DNA of 33,102 bases, from the NCBI GenBank assembly GCA_035546535.1, contig DASZWQ010000084.1:1-33102 (forward strand), written 5' to 3'. The stretch is from Pirellulales bacterium. Its GTDB lineage: Bacteria > Planctomycetota > Planctomycetia > Pirellulales > JACPPG01. The notes beneath the pieces are model-generated. The model was not told the DNA's origin. It saw nothing but the letters and a program-made list of their open reading frames with translations, and did not search any database. This document shows, in pieces, positions 2,697 to 13,940 of the stretch; the stretch's first letter is position 1; each line of letters begins with the position of its first letter. Position numbers and translations under genes: made by a program.

Positions 2697-3515
2697 ATGA
2701 CCTGCGACGACGTATTCGACATTCTGACGCGCGGTCCATTTCCTTCCGGCGCAGCCGACGACGACGACCAGGTCGAGCGCCATCTGGCGCGCTGCGCGGA
2801 ATGCCGCCGCCTGGCCACGGCGTTGCGTCCGGCCGTCGAGCTGTTTCAGGAATCGATCGAGCCGGACGAGACGAGCGCGCTACCGGGCTATCGTGGCCGC
2901 GTTGCCTTGCCCGGCGCCGAGGATTTGCTGGAAACTTGTGAGGAACGATCGAACGACGAATCGCAAGGGCTATTTGCCGCCGGTTGGCGGCCGGCTTGGA
3001 TTCGCGCCGACGCCGCGGCGCGGCGCTTTGGCGCGCGGCCTGCGCCCTCTTCCGCATTGAGGAACGTTCGGGGGGAACCGCCGGCGTCGTTTGGCCATTC
3101 GGCAACCACTGCGCGGACGAACCTCTTCAGGTTCGCGGCAGCCGTCATGCTAGGCGTGGCGGCGGCTGCCGGGGCGCGCTCTTGGATGCAGGATCAAGCG
3201 ACGTCGGCGGGCATCCCGCCCTCGGGTCCCACGGAGCTCGTTGCCACCCACGACGGCCACGGGGAACCAGGCAAGCATGACCTGCGCTGGCTGGCCGGCC
3301 TGGCGTTGCCTGCAACCTGCCTACCCTCAGAGGCGAGAGCCGCTTTACGAGATTCGGCCCAGTACCGCCGCTTCGAAGGTATCCAGTTGGCCTCGGCCGA
3401 CCATGCCGTTCGCCTGACCTGCTGCACCGACTGCCACAACGCGACGCGGGCGGGATTACTTCCCGGCGCCGGGGCAACGGTTCTCATGCAGGCCTGTGTG
3501 GCTTGCCACGATTAG
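2697..3515 (+). CDS. Membrane anti-sigma factor with two C-terminal CxxCH motifs
   Basis: The 272-residue protein starts with a zinc anti-sigma (ZAS) pattern: C3, then H29-x3-C33-x2-C36 (HLARCAEC), which normally binds zinc and the cognate sigma factor. Residues about 142-160 (LFRFAAAVMLGVAAAAGA) form one membrane segment, placing the rest outside the cytoplasm. The outer part ends with C243-TD-C246-H247 and, at the very terminus, C267-VA-C270-H271. CxxCH is the covalent haem-c attachment motif, so this part may bind two haems or sense redox state; this is inference. It sits 15 bases after the ECF sigma gene and is its likely inhibitor. The residues between 60 and 140 are low in recognisable features. 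Confidence 0.8.
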   Translation: MTCDDVFDILTRGPFPSGAADDDDQVERHLARCAECRRLATALRPAVELFQESIEPDETSALPGYRGRVALPGAEDLLETCEERSNDESQGLFAAGWRPAWIRADAAARRFGARPAPSSALRNVRGEPPASFGHSATTARTNLFRFAAAVMLGVAAAAGARSWMQDQATSAGIPPSGPTELVATHDGHGEPGKHDLRWLAGLALPATCLPSEARAALRDSAQYRRFEGIQLASADHAVRLTCCTDCHNATRAGLLPGAGATVLMQACVACHD

Positions 3516-3804: not shown

Positions 3805-6087
3805 ATGATCTCCCGGTTTGCCGGCCTTTTGGCTTGTGCGTTCATGCTTTTGGCTGTTACGCGCGCCCAAGGGGATAGCGCAGCGCTGGACCAGCTTTAC
3901 GGCGATGGCGTCCACAGTTACTTCTCAGGCGATTTCCTGGGCGCGCACCAGTCGCTCACCTCGGCGGCGTTGTCCGGCAGCAAAGACCCGCGCGTCTATT
4001 ACTACCGCGGGCTGGCCTGCCTGCATTTGGGGCGTGAACCGGACGCGGTGCTGGATTTCCAACGGGGTGCGAAGCTCGAGAACAGCGAGAACGACCGCTT
4101 CTACGACATCAGCCGCGCCTTGGAGCGCATCCAGGGGCGCGAGCGCATGATGCTCGAGCGCTCGCGGTCGCAGGCTCGCTTGCTCGCCCAGCAAGAATTG
4201 CAACGTCGGCGGTACGAACGCTACGAGCGCATTCGCAAGGCCGAGCCCGACGTACTCATGAAGCCGGCTCCGGCCGCGGCCAAGAAGCGCCCTGCCGCCG
4301 CTCCCCCGGTAGTGGCCAACGACGATCCGTTCTCGGACGACGTGACAGGCGCCGAAGCACCCGCGCCTGACGCAGCGGAAGCAGCCGCGGAAAACGAAGC
4401 GGCGACCGAGATGCCCGCCGATGAGCCCGCCGCGGAAGAAGCTGCCGCGGACATGCCGGCCGACGAACCCGCTGCTGACATGCCCGCTGACGAACCGCCG
4501 CCGGATGCTCCGGCGGAGGAAGCGCCGGCGGACGAGCCCCCCGCGACGGCGCCGGCGGACGATCCCTTTGGCGATGAATCGCCGGCCGCGGCCCCGGCCG
4601 CTCCGCCAGCGCGTGCGGCAGCCCCCGCGACTGATCCGGCCGTCGCAGCCGCGGAGGCCGCCGCACAGCAAGCGATCAAGGAAGGCGAGGCCGAGGCGAT
4701 CAACGAAGTCGCCGCCGAAGAGGCCGCCGCCGATCAAGATTTGCCCGGCGAGATGCCAGCCCGCAGTCGGTTGACGCCGAAGCCCACCCAACCTCCTTTG
4801 TCCGAGGCGATGCCCGGCGTCGAGGCGGGCGAAGCTCAACCTTCGGAAGCGCTACCTGGCGTCGAGCGCGGCGAGGCGCAACCTTCCGAGGCGCTGCCTG
4901 GCGTGGAGCGCGGCGAAGCGGAACCGGCGGAGGCCATGCCAGGCGAATCGGCCGGCGATGCTCTTTCCTCGGAAGCGATGCCGGGCGAAGAGGCGGGTGA
5001 ACCGTTGCCGTCGGAAGAAATGGCTGATGCCCCGCCCGCCACGGAGGAACCCGCTGACTCGGCAGTTGCTGCGACACCGAACGATGATCCCTTCGGCAAT
5101 GCGCCAGGCGCGGACGAGCCGGCTGCCGATGCGCCGGCTGTTGCGGAAGCGGCGCCTGCCGAATCGGACGCAGCGCCGGGTGATGATCCCTTTAACGCTG
5201 ATCCGGCCGCGGATGACGCGCCGGCTGACGCGCCCGCCGATGCGATGGCCACCGACACGGACGAAGTCGCGCCGAGCGACGAACCCGCCGATGCCGTTGC
5301 GTCCGATACGGACGCGCCGGCGAGCGAACCGGCCGGCGACGACCCTTTCAACGCTCCGCCCGCCGAAGAAACGGCCGCCAGCGCGCCGCCTGACGCCGAA
5401 CCGGACGCCGCAGACACGAACGATCCCTTTGCCGGTGATGAATCACCTGCCGCGCCTGCGGACGAGGCGACAGAAGCCCCTGCAATGGCTGCCGAGGATG
5501 CGACCGACGATCCCTTCAACGAGCCGGCAGCCGATGAGGCGATGAAGGACGAGCCGGCGACCGAAACAGCGACGGACGAAAACGCCAAGCCGGCGGACGA
5601 TCCGTTCGCTGACGATGACGCAACGCCGGCCGCGCCGCCTGCTGCGAGCGATGGCCCGGAGATGCCAGCCGCCGACGCTGAGAAGCCGGCCGAAGAGGTC
5701 GCGACGGATGATCCGTTTGCTGAGCCCGCGCCGAAGGCTTCCGCGGCACCTCCGCCCGCAGCAACTCCCGCGGCAAGTGATCCTTTCGCCGAGCCGCTTC
5801 CCGCGCCTACGGAATCGGTGGCCGCGCCGGCCGGAAAGCCGGTGCTGACAGCAGGTGCCGGCGGCCAAGGGGCGAAACAGGTTCAGGGTCGTGGGCGTGC
5901 GGCCGCTGGCCGGCCCACCGCCAACCGCACGCCAGCCGGACCGCCGGTGATCAAGAATCCGTACGCGACGGGCCCTGCGAAACAGCCCGTTAAGCCGGGT
6001 AGCCAGCCTGCCGCAGGACAAGCAGTGCCACCGGCGGCCAAGCCGGCCGCACCGGCGAACACGACGGGTGAAGATCCCTTCAAATAA
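3805..6087 (+). CDS. Secreted TPR-start protein with long acidic Ala/Pro/Glu/Asp tail and DPF repeats
   Basis: The start is ATG 3805, preceded by GGAG seven bases upstream and followed by a signal peptide (ISRFAGLLACAFMLLAV). The open frame runs back to 3496 but that part looks non-coding. The product is 760 residues. Residues ~25-95 look like two TPR helical pairs (DQLYGDGVHSYFSGDF; YYYRGLACLHLG). Residues ~105-150 are a charged helix rich in Arg/Gln. The remaining ~600 residues are low-complexity Ala/Pro/Glu/Asp, with the tripeptide DPF occurring eleven times (usually DDPF followed by G, N, A or S), including the C-terminus GEDPFK. It also has five copies of a 14-residue repeat (4801-5010). 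Function unknown; a disordered surface or envelope scaffold is plausible. Confidence 0.8.
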   Translation: MISRFAGLLACAFMLLAVTRAQGDSAALDQLYGDGVHSYFSGDFLGAHQSLTSAALSGSKDPRVYYYRGLACLHLGREPDAVLDFQRGAKLENSENDRFYDISRALERIQGRERMMLERSRSQARLLAQQELQRRRYERYERIRKAEPDVLMKPAPAAAKKRPAAAPPVVANDDPFSDDVTGAEAPAPDAAEAAAENEAATEMPADEPAAEEAAADMPADEPAADMPADEPPPDAPAEEAPADEPPATAPADDPFGDESPAAAPAAPPARAAAPATDPAVAAAEAAAQQAIKEGEAEAINEVAAEEAAADQDLPGEMPARSRLTPKPTQPPLSEAMPGVEAGEAQPSEALPGVERGEAQPSEALPGVERGEAEPAEAMPGESAGDALSSEAMPGEEAGEPLPSEEMADAPPATEEPADSAVAATPNDDPFGNAPGADEPAADAPAVAEAAPAESDAAPGDDPFNADPAADDAPADAPADAMATDTDEVAPSDEPADAVASDTDAPASEPAGDDPFNAPPAEETAASAPPDAEPDAADTNDPFAGDESPAAPADEATEAPAMAAEDATDDPFNEPAADEAMKDEPATETATDENAKPADDPFADDDATPAAPPAASDGPEMPAADAEKPAEEVATDDPFAEPAPKASAAPPPAATPAASDPFAEPLPAPTESVAAPAGKPVLTAGAGGQGAKQVQGRGRAAAGRPTANRTPAGPPVIKNPYATGPAKQPVKPGSQPAAGQAVPPAAKPAAPANTTGEDPFK
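4801..5010 (+). repeat. Five tandem 42-base (14-residue) in-frame repeats
   Basis: Inside the preceding gene, the units SEAMPGVEAGEAQP, SEALPGVERGEAQP, SEALPGVERGEAEP, AEAMPGESAGDALS and SEAMPGEEAGEPLP follow each other without gaps. Units two and three are nearly identical, suggesting recent duplication; the outer ones have diverged. Confidence 0.85.
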
Positions 6088-6605: not shown

Positions 6606-9600
6606 ATGACTCGCAATCTTCGCACTGCCACACTCTCACCACTTTGCTCGGCAGCGGCCGTTCTGCTCCTGGTCGCGCCGGTCCGCGCGGTGCCGGCGAT
6701 CAGTCAGCTTTCGCTGCGCGGCCTGCAAACCGGCGCCACTACGACACTGGTTATCGAAGGCGCCGATCTGCCCGCCGACACGCGCGTGCTGCTACCGGTG
6801 CCGATCGCGCGGCAAGAACCCAGGCCAGCAAGCACCGCCAATCGCCTGGAGATCGACATCACGCTCGATGCTACGGTCGTGCCGGGCATCTATCCTTTGC
6901 GCGTCGGCAACGGCCACGGCGTGTCAAATGCGATGCTCGTCGGCATCGATCATCTGCCTGAGCGACCGTTTGCTCTAGAAACCGGCGCCCTGCCGGTCGC
7001 GCTCGATGGCACGCTCGCAGGCGGCACCATCTTACGCACCGCCTTCGACGGCAAGGCCGGAGAGCGCATCGTGGTTGACGTCGAAAGTCATCGGCTGGGC
7101 AGCAAGCTCAACCCGGTCGTGCACCTGCTCGACGCGCGGAACGCCCAGTTGGCCTGGGGACAGATGAATCCGGCTATTGCCGGCGATGCGCGCTTGCAGG
7201 CGATTCTTCCTGCCGACGGACGATACACCGTCGAACTGCACGATGCTCTCTATCGTGGTGAGGGACCTGGCGCATTTCGCTTGAAAATCGGCGACATCCA
7301 TTTCGCCGACCACGTTTTTCCACTCGGCGGACGCCGCGGCACGCACGGACTGTTCGAATTGACGGGCACGAACCTCGCGCCGGGACAAATGGTCGAAGCG
7401 GATCTTGCCGGCGGAGCCGCGGCGCTCCCCGCGCGCTGGCCCGTGGGCCAGGTACTCACCGGATCGCGGCCGCAAATCCTCGTGGGCGATCTGCCCGAGG
7501 TCTCCGAACACAACGCCGGTCCGAACCTGCAGGCGGCCACCGCGCCGGTGGTCATCAACGGGCGTTTACTCGCCGCGCGCGAAGAGGATCGCTACCTCGT
7601 CAACGTCACGCCGGGGCAAACTTTGCGATTCGATTGTATAGCCGCGCAGGCCGGCTCGCCTCTGGACGGTGTGCTCGACATTCGCAAGGAATCGGGCGAG
7701 CAACTGGCTTCGGCCGACGACGCGCCGACTACGACCGATCCTACGCTCGACTTCAAAGTGCCCGACGGCGTGACGAAAGTAGTGGCTGCCGTTCGCGACT
7801 TGCAGCGGCGTGGCGGCACGGAGTACGCCTATCGCTTGAGCATCGCCCCCGCGGATCGCCCTGACTTCCGTTTGGAAATCTTCGCAGACCGAGAGCAAGT
7901 TCCCACCGGCGGCGCCGAGATCGTCCGCGTTCGCGCGCAGCGCATGGGCTACCAGGGGGCGATCAAGCTCGCTGTCGAGGGACTGCCACCGGGCGTGACC
8001 GTGGCCGGGGACGAAATTCCCGCCGGCGCGACCGATGCGCTTCTGACACTTGCCGCCTCGGGTGCGGCCTCGCAAGCGATTGCCACGATCACCGGCACGG
8101 CCGCGGACCCTAACGTGGCGCTTGTGCGGACTGCCCAAACGCCGGAGAGCCCGGGCGCTCGGTCGCAACCCTGGTTGCGTAGCGAATTGGCCGTGGCGGC
8201 AACCGGCGCCGCCTCGCTTTCGGTCCGTTGGGACGCGGATTCGGCCGGGGTGCAGTTGCCGCTGGGCAGCCGGGTGCCGGCCCGAGTGAAGATCACGCGC
8301 GCCCCCTTCGCCGGCGGCGCCGTGCGATTGTCGCTGCTCACCAGTCAGATCACGCCCAAGAAAGTGGTCACGAAGAACAATCAAAAGCAGCAAGTCGACG
8401 ACACGGACCGTACGCTGCGCTTCGACGGCATGCCGACCATCGCGCCGGATCAGTCCGATCTCGTAGCCACGATCCTCGTTCCCGGCGACTTGCCGAACAT
8501 TCCGTACGACCTGGCGATCCGCGCCGAGCTATTGGCCGCCGATGGAAAGAACGTAGTCGCCAGCGTCGTTACTCCAGCGCGGCGTCTGACGACCGTTCAG
8601 CCGCTGCGGCTTGCGCTCGTGGGCGAAGCCAAAGTGGCTGCCAAGGCCGGCACGGGCGACACCGGCAAGCTCACAGGCAAGATCGAGCGCATCGGCGACT
8701 TTCCGCATCCCGTCACGGTAACGCTCACTGGCTTGCCGGCCGATTACCTGGCTCCGACCGTGGAAGTGCCGGCCGGCGCCAGCGACTTCTCGCTACCCGT
8801 GGCGTTTCCTTACAACAGCGCACAGGGCGAGCTGGCCGGTGTGTCGATCGTAGCCACGGCGCGCCCTGGTGGCGGCGCGGCAATCAACTCGAACGCCGTG
8901 CCCGTGGCTGTGAACGTCGTGGCCGGCGGGCCGCCGCCGGCACTCTATCGCATCTTCGAGGACGAACCGCATTTCGTCACGCTCTTGAACGAAGGGGGCG
9001 GCGCCGCAAACTTGGAATCGACCGATCGTTATTCTGGTCCGGCGGCATTGAGAGTAACGCCGGATCAGAAGTTCCGCGCCAAGCTACCGGGTCTGTCGAT
9101 CAAGATCGCCGAGCATCCCGCCGAGGGCGAATACCGGTACCTGCGCTACGCGTGGAAAAAGATCGGCGGGGGCAGCGTGCTGTTGCAACTCAACGCTAAT
9201 GGCACCTGGGGCCCGACACGCGGACAAGGCAAACCCGGCTACCGGTACGAGGCAGGCCCGGCCGGCAACACGTTCAATGCCGAGGCCATCCGCACGAGCG
9301 ACCGGTTGCCCTATGGTTGGACCGTCGTCACGCGCGACCTGTTCGCGGATTTCGGTGCGTTCGAGCTGGATGGGCTGGCGTTCACGCCCGGTGATGGTAC
9401 CGCCGCGCTCTTTGATAGCATTTACCTGGCGCGGAGCATGGACGATTTCAAAGATTGCCCAGCGCCGCTGCCGGCCGAACAGCCGTTGGCCGTTTTCGAG
9501 GACCAGCCCGAGTTCATCGCGAATCTGAGTCAGGGGGCCGGCACCGCGAGCTTGGACACGGCTGACCGATTCACGGGCGCAACCAGCGTGAAGATCACGC

Positions 9601-10007
9601 CGGAACAGCGCTACAATCCGGCCCTGCCTGGACTGGGGGTTAAGATCCGCCAGAACCCGGCCGCCGGCGAGTATCGCTACTTGCAATTCGCCTGGAAGAA
9701 GCACGGAGGCCAGCGCCTGTGCGTGCAATTGAATCACGACGGGCAGTGGGGGCCTGTGCCGTCGACCAATCCGCTCAAGTTCCGTTACGACGCCGGTGCC
9801 GCGCCGGGTGAGACGTTCGGCGGCGCCATGCGGATCGATGGCAGCTTGCCGAACGATTGGGTCGTGGTCACGCGCGACCTGTTCGCCGACTTCGGCGAAT
9901 TCACTTTGACGGGGCTGGCCCTGGCGCCGGTCGATGGCGATTTTGCCCTTTTCGATCACATCTATCTGGGGCGCACGCCGCGCGATTTCGACCAGGTTGC
10001 CCAATGA
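6606..10007 (+). CDS. Large secreted pre-peptidase (PPC)-type beta-sandwich protein with duplicated C-terminal module
   Basis: This 1133-residue protein starts with a signal peptide (LCSAAAVLLLVAPVRAVPA). An IPT/TIG-like beta domain follows (SLRGLQTGATTTLVIEGADL). Two PPC-like segments come next, with the family's wording (GERIVVDVESHRLGSKLNPVVHLLD; VTPGQTLRFDCIAAQAGSPLDGVLDI). The middle is further immunoglobulin-like beta sheet. The end is two copies of a ~182-residue module, beginning FEDEPHF (from about 8952) and FEDQPEF (from about 9498). Each carries VTPxQxF/Y, GEYRYLxxAWKK, LNxxGxWGP, WxVVTRDLFADFG and an xDxIYLxR ending. Such proteins are exported by planctomycetes and probably bind surfaces or glycans; no catalytic residues are recognised. 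No clear ribosome-binding site precedes ATG 6606. Confidence 0.85.
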   Translation: MTRNLRTATLSPLCSAAAVLLLVAPVRAVPAISQLSLRGLQTGATTTLVIEGADLPADTRVLLPVPIARQEPRPASTANRLEIDITLDATVVPGIYPLRVGNGHGVSNAMLVGIDHLPERPFALETGALPVALDGTLAGGTILRTAFDGKAGERIVVDVESHRLGSKLNPVVHLLDARNAQLAWGQMNPAIAGDARLQAILPADGRYTVELHDALYRGEGPGAFRLKIGDIHFADHVFPLGGRRGTHGLFELTGTNLAPGQMVEADLAGGAAALPARWPVGQVLTGSRPQILVGDLPEVSEHNAGPNLQAATAPVVINGRLLAAREEDRYLVNVTPGQTLRFDCIAAQAGSPLDGVLDIRKESGEQLASADDAPTTTDPTLDFKVPDGVTKVVAAVRDLQRRGGTEYAYRLSIAPADRPDFRLEIFADREQVPTGGAEIVRVRAQRMGYQGAIKLAVEGLPPGVTVAGDEIPAGATDALLTLAASGAASQAIATITGTAADPNVALVRTAQTPESPGARSQPWLRSELAVAATGAASLSVRWDADSAGVQLPLGSRVPARVKITRAPFAGGAVRLSLLTSQITPKKVVTKNNQKQQVDDTDRTLRFDGMPTIAPDQSDLVATILVPGDLPNIPYDLAIRAELLAADGKNVVASVVTPARRLTTVQPLRLALVGEAKVAAKAGTGDTGKLTGKIERIGDFPHPVTVTLTGLPADYLAPTVEVPAGASDFSLPVAFPYNSAQGELAGVSIVATARPGGGAAINSNAVPVAVNVVAGGPPPALYRIFEDEPHFVTLLNEGGGAANLESTDRYSGPAALRVTPDQKFRAKLPGLSIKIAEHPAEGEYRYLRYAWKKIGGGSVLLQLNANGTWGPTRGQGKPGYRYEAGPAGNTFNAEAIRTSDRLPYGWTVVTRDLFADFGAFELDGLAFTPGDGTAALFDSIYLARSMDDFKDCPAPLPAEQPLAVFEDQPEFIANLSQGAGTASLDTADRFTGATSVKITPEQRYNPALPGLGVKIRQNPAAGEYRYLQFAWKKHGGQRLCVQLNHDGQWGPVPSTNPLKFRYDAGAAPGETFGGAMRIDGSLPNDWVVVTRDLFADFGEFTLTGLALAPVDGDFALFDHIYLGRTPRDFDQVAQ

Positions 10008-13214: not shown

Positions 13215-13940
13215 CTATTTGCGGAACCAATCCGATTTGCCCAGCGCCGAAGGCATGGAAATCTTAGGCAGCTTGTTGCGCGGCGGAGATTTCTTCGTCG
13301 TCTCGTCGTCGCTGTTCGACGGCGGCAGTGTATCGACCTTCGCCTTGGCGGACGGTTCCGCGACCGGCTGCGGCATGCTCGTCGGCTGCCCGCTATAGGA
13401 CATGTTTGGGCCATTGCCGCACGATGCACAGGTGCCGCAGGCAGCACACGTCCCGCCGTTGCCGCACTCGTTGCACTTGCTGCACTTGCCCCCCCAGGTC
13501 ACGAGCTCGGGCGTGCAGGTATCGTGATTGCAGCGGAAGTACAAGTACCGACCGCGGCGGCAACTGCAATGGTTGCAGCGTGGTTCGCCGCAATATCCCA
13601 GCCACGGATCGCAGCACGCCGGCACGCCAGGCCAGACGGACATGCCGCCGGGCATGATCCCGAAATCGGGGTTGTATCCGTAGATGCTCACGCCGCCAGC
13701 GCCGTAACCGACACCGCCACCGCCCGCGACGTACCCTCCCGTACCAATATCGCCGGCCGCGTAGGAGCTTTCCTCGGCAACCGCGACTTGCGAGGTCAGC
13801 CTGGGGGAGGGCTGTGACGTGGGCTTCCCCGCTGGACGCCCGCCGGCCATCGCCACGTAGCGAATCCCACTTTGCGCAAGCGCAGGGTCGGTGAGCAACA
13901 AGGCCGCCGCGACGGCGACCGGCAACGCGAATACCTTCAT
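13215..13940 (-). CDS. Secreted Gly/Cys-rich protein (241 aa)
   Basis: The product starts with a clear signal peptide (MKVFALPVAVAAALLL, cleavage near ALAQS). Residues ~65-105 are Gly/Tyr-rich (YVAGGGGVGYGAGG). Residues ~108-180 hold fifteen cysteines, many spaced as CxxC (KCSKCNEC, CAACGTCASC), which could bind metal or form a disulfide knot. The tail is Pro/Ser/Lys-rich. GGGAA lies about six bases before the ATG at 13940. No family is recognised. An outer-envelope or cell-surface structural role is plausible for a planctomycete but is only inference. Confidence 0.8.
   Translation of the reverse strand: MKVFALPVAVAAALLLTDPALAQSGIRYVAMAGGRPAGKPTSQPSPRLTSQVAVAEESSYAAGDIGTGGYVAGGGGVGYGAGGVSIYGYNPDFGIMPGGMSVWPGVPACCDPWLGYCGEPRCNHCSCRRGRYLYFRCNHDTCTPELVTWGGKCSKCNECGNGGTCAACGTCASCGNGPNMSYSGQPTSMPQPVAEPSAKAKVDTLPPSNSDDETTKKSPPRNKLPKISMPSALGKSDWFRK

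Follow-up and report, generated by a model that had tools for sequence, protein, structure and literature searches.

In the window, a stretch of 33,102 nucleotides from a Pirellulales bacterium, the gene at positions 2697 to 3515 of the forward strand encodes a 272-residue putative membrane anti-sigma factor whose outer domain carries two CxxCH motifs, and this CxxCH tail is a real and strongly conserved feature of the protein's family. The protein is probably a single-pass ECF anti-sigma factor with a small periplasmic domain that binds c-type haem and senses redox state or a gas. It would add a new type to the membrane ZAS anti-sigma factors, and we regard its haem character as likely from the sequence comparisons presented here.

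The open reading frame begins with ATG at 2697 and ends with TAG at 3513-3515. It lies 15 bp behind the gene of its presumed partner, a 231-residue ECF sigma factor (1986-2681, same strand) matching Pfam Sigma70_r2 (3e-16), r4_2 (2e-8) and TIGR02937 (1e-24); the start codon of the sigma gene was set by alignment of homologues, the start methionine being kept in L058-L060. Elsewhere the ECF and ZAS genes usually overlap by 4 bp (ATGA). The ZAS (class I anti-sigma) domain occupies residues 1-65 (2697-2891), with the zinc motif H29-x3-C33-x2-C36 and C3 as its ligand set, and is followed by a single transmembrane helix at about residues 142-160 (3120-3176), placed by hydropathy and charge bias and lying inside an AlphaFold helix of residues 136-170. 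Near the end of the protein stand motif 1, CTDCH (residues 243-247; 3423-3437), and motif 2, CVACH (residues 267-271; 3495-3509), which stops one residue short of the C-terminus. Two CxxCH motifs arise by chance in 0.0045% of shuffles of the outer domain's own residues. The initial annotation of this DNA had described the reading frame, the ZAS Hx3Cx2C motif, the one membrane helix and both CxxCH motifs exactly as we find them. Its inventory of cysteines was right about the two motifs and overlooked C242 (3420-3422), immediately preceding motif 1, and the upstream C208 (3318-3320), which could be a distal ligand to haem or pair in a disulfide. CxxCH is absent from L175, an ordinary ZAS-membrane protein encoded in this genome.

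Relatives of the protein are spread across the order Pirellulales. Homologues are present in 20 of 40 related genomes searched, and when 396 Pirellulales genomes were searched with a profile, 61 were recovered, one per genome. A scan of named genomes found nothing with a single sequence and 24 loci with an alignment; Blastopirellula marina DSM 3645 has a family member (L139). Across an alignment of 44 full-length Pirellulales members (A2), the six motif residues (C, C and H, twice) are identical in every sequence. Mean pairwise identity in this set is 57% for the ZAS domain, 13% for the linker and 23% for the outer domain, the last value becoming 17% once the six motif positions are set aside. 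C3, H29, C33 and C36 are likewise invariant in the 44, so that the Hx3Cx2C motif and its upstream ligand occur throughout. The position of C242 is a cysteine in 42 of 44 members, and 43 have an upstream cysteine like C208; L069 lacks both equivalents, and L077 lacks that of C242. Motif 1 and motif 2 are 20 to 35 residues apart, with motif 2 at or near the protein end. Three relatives with CxxCH (L134, L135, L137) have an extra extension of 70-150 residues beyond motif 2. The initial annotation had proposed looking for the motifs in homologues that adjoin ECF genes, and had named their loss in close homologues as evidence against its reading. Conservation proved strict, both in the 44 and in all eight additional members from named assemblies, which have two or three CxxCH motifs and an adjoining sigma gene; the motifs disappear only together with the entire outer domain, in 16 short proteins.

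The same plan recurs in a sister lineage within the class, family label f21. All 30 loci read there encode a ZAS domain, a membrane helix, an upstream cysteine (usually in CLW) and one or two CxxCH motifs, the second being present in two of them; the lineage has no partner equivalent to C242. A cysteine plus CxxCH is thus the core shared by both lineages, and doubling of the motif is typical of Pirellulales. Motif copies were added in L104 and L143, Pirellulales members with three motifs, and in L160 and L172, and each added copy is a complete CxxCH with its histidine, as in multihaem cytochromes. Judged from sequence, this completeness suits haem attachment better than binding of zinc or formation of disulfides.

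Profile comparisons point, though weakly, in the same direction. When the order profile was compared with the PDB, the best matches of the outer domain were c-type cytochromes (E-values 2e-4, 0.012 and 0.033), and the inner domain matched ChrR (0.6); for the sister-lineage profile, RslA ranked first (0.11). Pfam Cytochrome_C7 matches 12 of 44 members and Paired_CXXCH matches 7, all weakly, and the NCBIfam "anti-sigma factor" model matches 27 (best 5e-6). The window protein itself scores 16.4 bits with Cytochrome_C7 (curated cut-off 24.8) and 16.8 bits with zf-HC2 (cut-off 22.2); such low scores are expected of short cysteine-rich motifs, and the cytochrome signal is in part the motif itself. 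In the first AlphaFold model, quality is good for the ZAS domain and helix alone, the outer domain of about 110 residues being poorly modelled and having no confident fold; compared with known structures by Foldseek and VIA-align, this model found no meaningful match. Confidence in a model of a sister-lineage protein is limited to these same two parts, the ZAS domain and helix, and its sole Foldseek match is RslA, a weak one (E-value 5.7).

In 57 of 68 family members, more lysine and arginine lies N-terminal to the helix than C-terminal to it; in 9 the bias is reversed. By the positive-inside rule, this bias predicts that the C-terminus and its motifs lie outside the membrane, the opposite of the cytoplasmic C-terminus that had been named as a finding against the initial reading. 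That reading had also called for a search for cytochrome c maturation genes, and a candidate is present: a single open frame of 1169 codons (G000:C37) matches both ResB (E-value 7e-8) and a CcsA-type protein (2e-24), and may encode a fused CcsBA cytochrome c synthase. An exported CxxCH in a cell with CcsBA is the usual target of haem attachment. ResB matches occur in most of the genomes of the group that were tested, those with the short, motif-free version of the protein included, so the presence of the synthase does not discriminate between the two versions. A distal histidine or methionine ligand forms no conserved column in the 44 members of the order or in the f21 lineage; the conserved residue is instead a cysteine, a ligand found in some c-haem proteins. 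Our claim is therefore that the protein works like a c-haem sensor, not that it belongs to a named cytochrome family.

The cysteines could serve purposes other than haem. The outer motifs might bind zinc or another metal through Cys3His-type sites, formed by the upstream cysteine, the CxxC and the histidine, and so make a periplasmic metal or thiol sensor; the single cysteine plus CxxCH that is universal in the f21 lineage would suffice for such a four-ligand site, and neither lineage conserves a distal histidine or methionine. We nevertheless consider metal binding unlikely, because the histidine is fixed at the haem position of both motifs in 44 of 44 members, the added copies are again CxxCH, the profile matches are cytochromes, and an exported motif of this kind alongside a CcsBA synthase ordinarily receives haem. 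Still less probable, in our estimate, is a cofactor-free disulfide switch in which C208, C242 and the CxxC pairs gate the sigma factor. C208 and C242 do supply two cysteines outside the motifs, and both are gone in L069 and C242 in L077; this arrangement, however, leaves the invariant histidine of each motif unexplained, and C242, as one of the partners, is missing from the f21 lineage.

The relation of the protein to the sigma factor next to it is close, with exceptions. A sigma gene lies immediately upstream of 46 of the 51 members with CxxCH, mostly with the 4-bp overlap, and of none of the 16 members (families f7 and f13) that stop just past the membrane helix. The resulting table (46 and 5 with CxxCH, with and without sigma; 0 and 16 for the short proteins) gives a Fisher p of 2e-11, a value that ignores relatedness: in a ZAS tree with few columns and many unresolved forks, 14 of the 15 f7 rows group in a single clade, with the f13 row in another place, so that few independent loss events stand behind it. 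A genome-wide search for a cognate sigma in 15 genomes with short proteins gave nothing but background ECF paralogues (at most about 72 bits); control cognate sigmas in the same search scored 160-312 bits. The short ZAS-plus-helix proteins are L091, L093, L094, L097-L103, L107, L109-L111, L113 and L114, all of family f7 except L099 in f13. Several f7 genomes have an AhpC/TSA peroxiredoxin gene just upstream of the short ZAS gene, and in several ArgS/RsfS genes are found near it on the opposite strand.

The exceptions are five members (L065, L072, L073, L075, L082), in at least three places of the ZAS tree, that retain CxxCH and have no cognate sigma, either adjoining or at any other place in the assembly. 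Two of the five genomes reach only 80-81% completeness, but the local absence was read directly. At L072, for example, the ZAS gene comes straight after that of the response regulator, with no sigma between them. Sigma loss without motif loss is what the simplest model has most trouble explaining, and it indicates that the motifs are not retained solely for that sigma. The proposal of the initial annotation that the protein controls the adjacent ECF factor needs qualifying in view of the five genomes that keep the CxxCH protein alone. These five, scattered as they are, together with the 16 short proteins without sigma and the strong conservation of the ZAS domain (57% mean identity), would also suit a haem protein that is mainly an electron carrier or has another partner, the ZAS domain being a tether and the adjoining sigma not its main target. 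We think this improbable in view of the sigma gene directly upstream of nearly all CxxCH members, mostly in translational overlap. Inspected by eye, the regions upstream of the sigma genes contain no recognisable ECF-type autoregulatory motif; their conserved elements resemble the sigma-70 type.

Among the gene clusters examined, no regular neighbour with a cytochrome, oxidase or haem function was recognised, and the neighbourhood therefore gives no hint of the signal. The contig starts with the C-terminal fragment of a histidine kinase, and an OmpR-type response regulator gene immediately precedes that of the sigma factor (both within 19-1327 of the window). In the genus (L058-L060) the succession of regulator, sigma, ZAS and TPR protein is repeated, and L072 and L099 have kept the regulator and lost the sigma. 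Two further genes are conserved beside the locus in the genus, one for a protein that begins with TPR repeats and continues in a very long Ala/Pro/Asp-rich tail (3805-6087) and one for a large secreted protein (6606-10007) whose L058 homologue has no Pfam match. A secreted open frame at 13215-13940 of the reverse strand contains a stretch of closely packed cysteines in CxxC and CxC patterns (for example CSKCNECGNGGTCAACGTCASCGNG).

For the redox- or gas-sensing haem anti-sigma factor that we favour, the course that we infer, from haem attachment through sigma binding and inhibition to signal and release, would be as follows. The protein would insert in the membrane with its N-terminus in the cytoplasm, after which CcsBA would attach haem to both CxxCH motifs, and the ZAS domain would retain at the membrane the ECF sigma encoded with it. 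The haems may then change their oxidation state or bind a gas, NO for instance, and the outer domain would in response be altered or become open to proteolysis. The ZAS-sigma complex would thereby be weakened and the sigma set free; conformational change and proteolysis are both compatible as the route of release. The conserved upstream cysteine is a candidate distal ligand, which would give Cys/His ligation by analogy with Tll0287-type domains. We favour redox state or a haem ligand as the most likely signal.

It is an even bet, in our view, that the proteins constitute an ECF anti-sigma family found across a planctomycete class, with covalent c-type haem as the periplasmic sensor, perhaps with one Cys/His-ligated haem ancestrally that was doubled in Pirellulales; these would be the first anti-sigma factors with a cytochrome of their own for the direct sensing of redox state or NO outside the cytoplasm. 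Few ECF systems have a known signal, the planctomycete ones least of all. The conserved haem motif narrows the candidates to redox state, NO and other haem ligands, and the member in Blastopirellula marina DSM 3645 brings the question within reach of work on cultured strains. If the proposal is true, covalent haem, already familiar from chemoreceptors and kinases, joins the ECF route of bacterial signalling as well.

The sensing parts of known ZAS anti-sigma factors are based on a cupin, on thiols or on proteolysis, and the literature searched describes no ZAS member with CxxCH on the outer side. With the class I proteins (ChrR, RslA, RsrA, RsiW; PMC7406223) the window protein has in common the N-terminal Hx3Cx2C with its upstream cysteine, a gene right behind that of its ECF sigma, and one membrane helix as in the RslA/RsiW type; the words heme and cytochrome do not occur in the text of PMC7406223. 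In the searchable literature on planctomycete ECF systems and on anti-sigma factors that carry CXXCH, a cytochrome or c-type haem, the architecture is undescribed, provisionally so, an earlier mention in work on planctomycete ECF factors or on ECF reclassification being possible. Cytochrome c7 and doubled-CXXCH modules (PF14522, PF09699, TIGR01905) resemble the outer domain in their CxxCH pairs 20-35 residues apart and in the weak profile matches, and differ in that the window protein falls below the curated cut-offs and has no conserved bis-His ligands. The haem-binding RsbR of the Vibrio stressosome (PMC4976288) also joins haem sensing to an anti-sigma-type cascade, but it is a cytoplasmic globin of unrelated sequence that holds its haem in the globin pocket and acts in the stressosome pathway.

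Similar in layout are the c-type-haem sensor domains of chemoreceptors and kinases (Geobacter GSU0582 and GSU0935; sCache_heme, DUF3365 and Tll0287; PMC12889525, PMC3460858), in which a strictly conserved extracytoplasmic CXXCH is combined with a membrane helix and a cytoplasmic output. Cys/His ligation has been reported for Tll0287-type haem domains, and relatives fused to signalling modules act as NO sensors (PMC12889525, a preprint that mentions neither sigma factors nor Planctomycetes). We take this analogy as a lead for Cys ligation and NO sensing in the anti-sigma factor. The outputs of the c-haem sensor domains are chemoreceptors, kinases and cyclic-di-GMP enzymes, whereas here the output is an anti-sigma domain; the window protein also differs in having two motifs at its extreme C-terminus.
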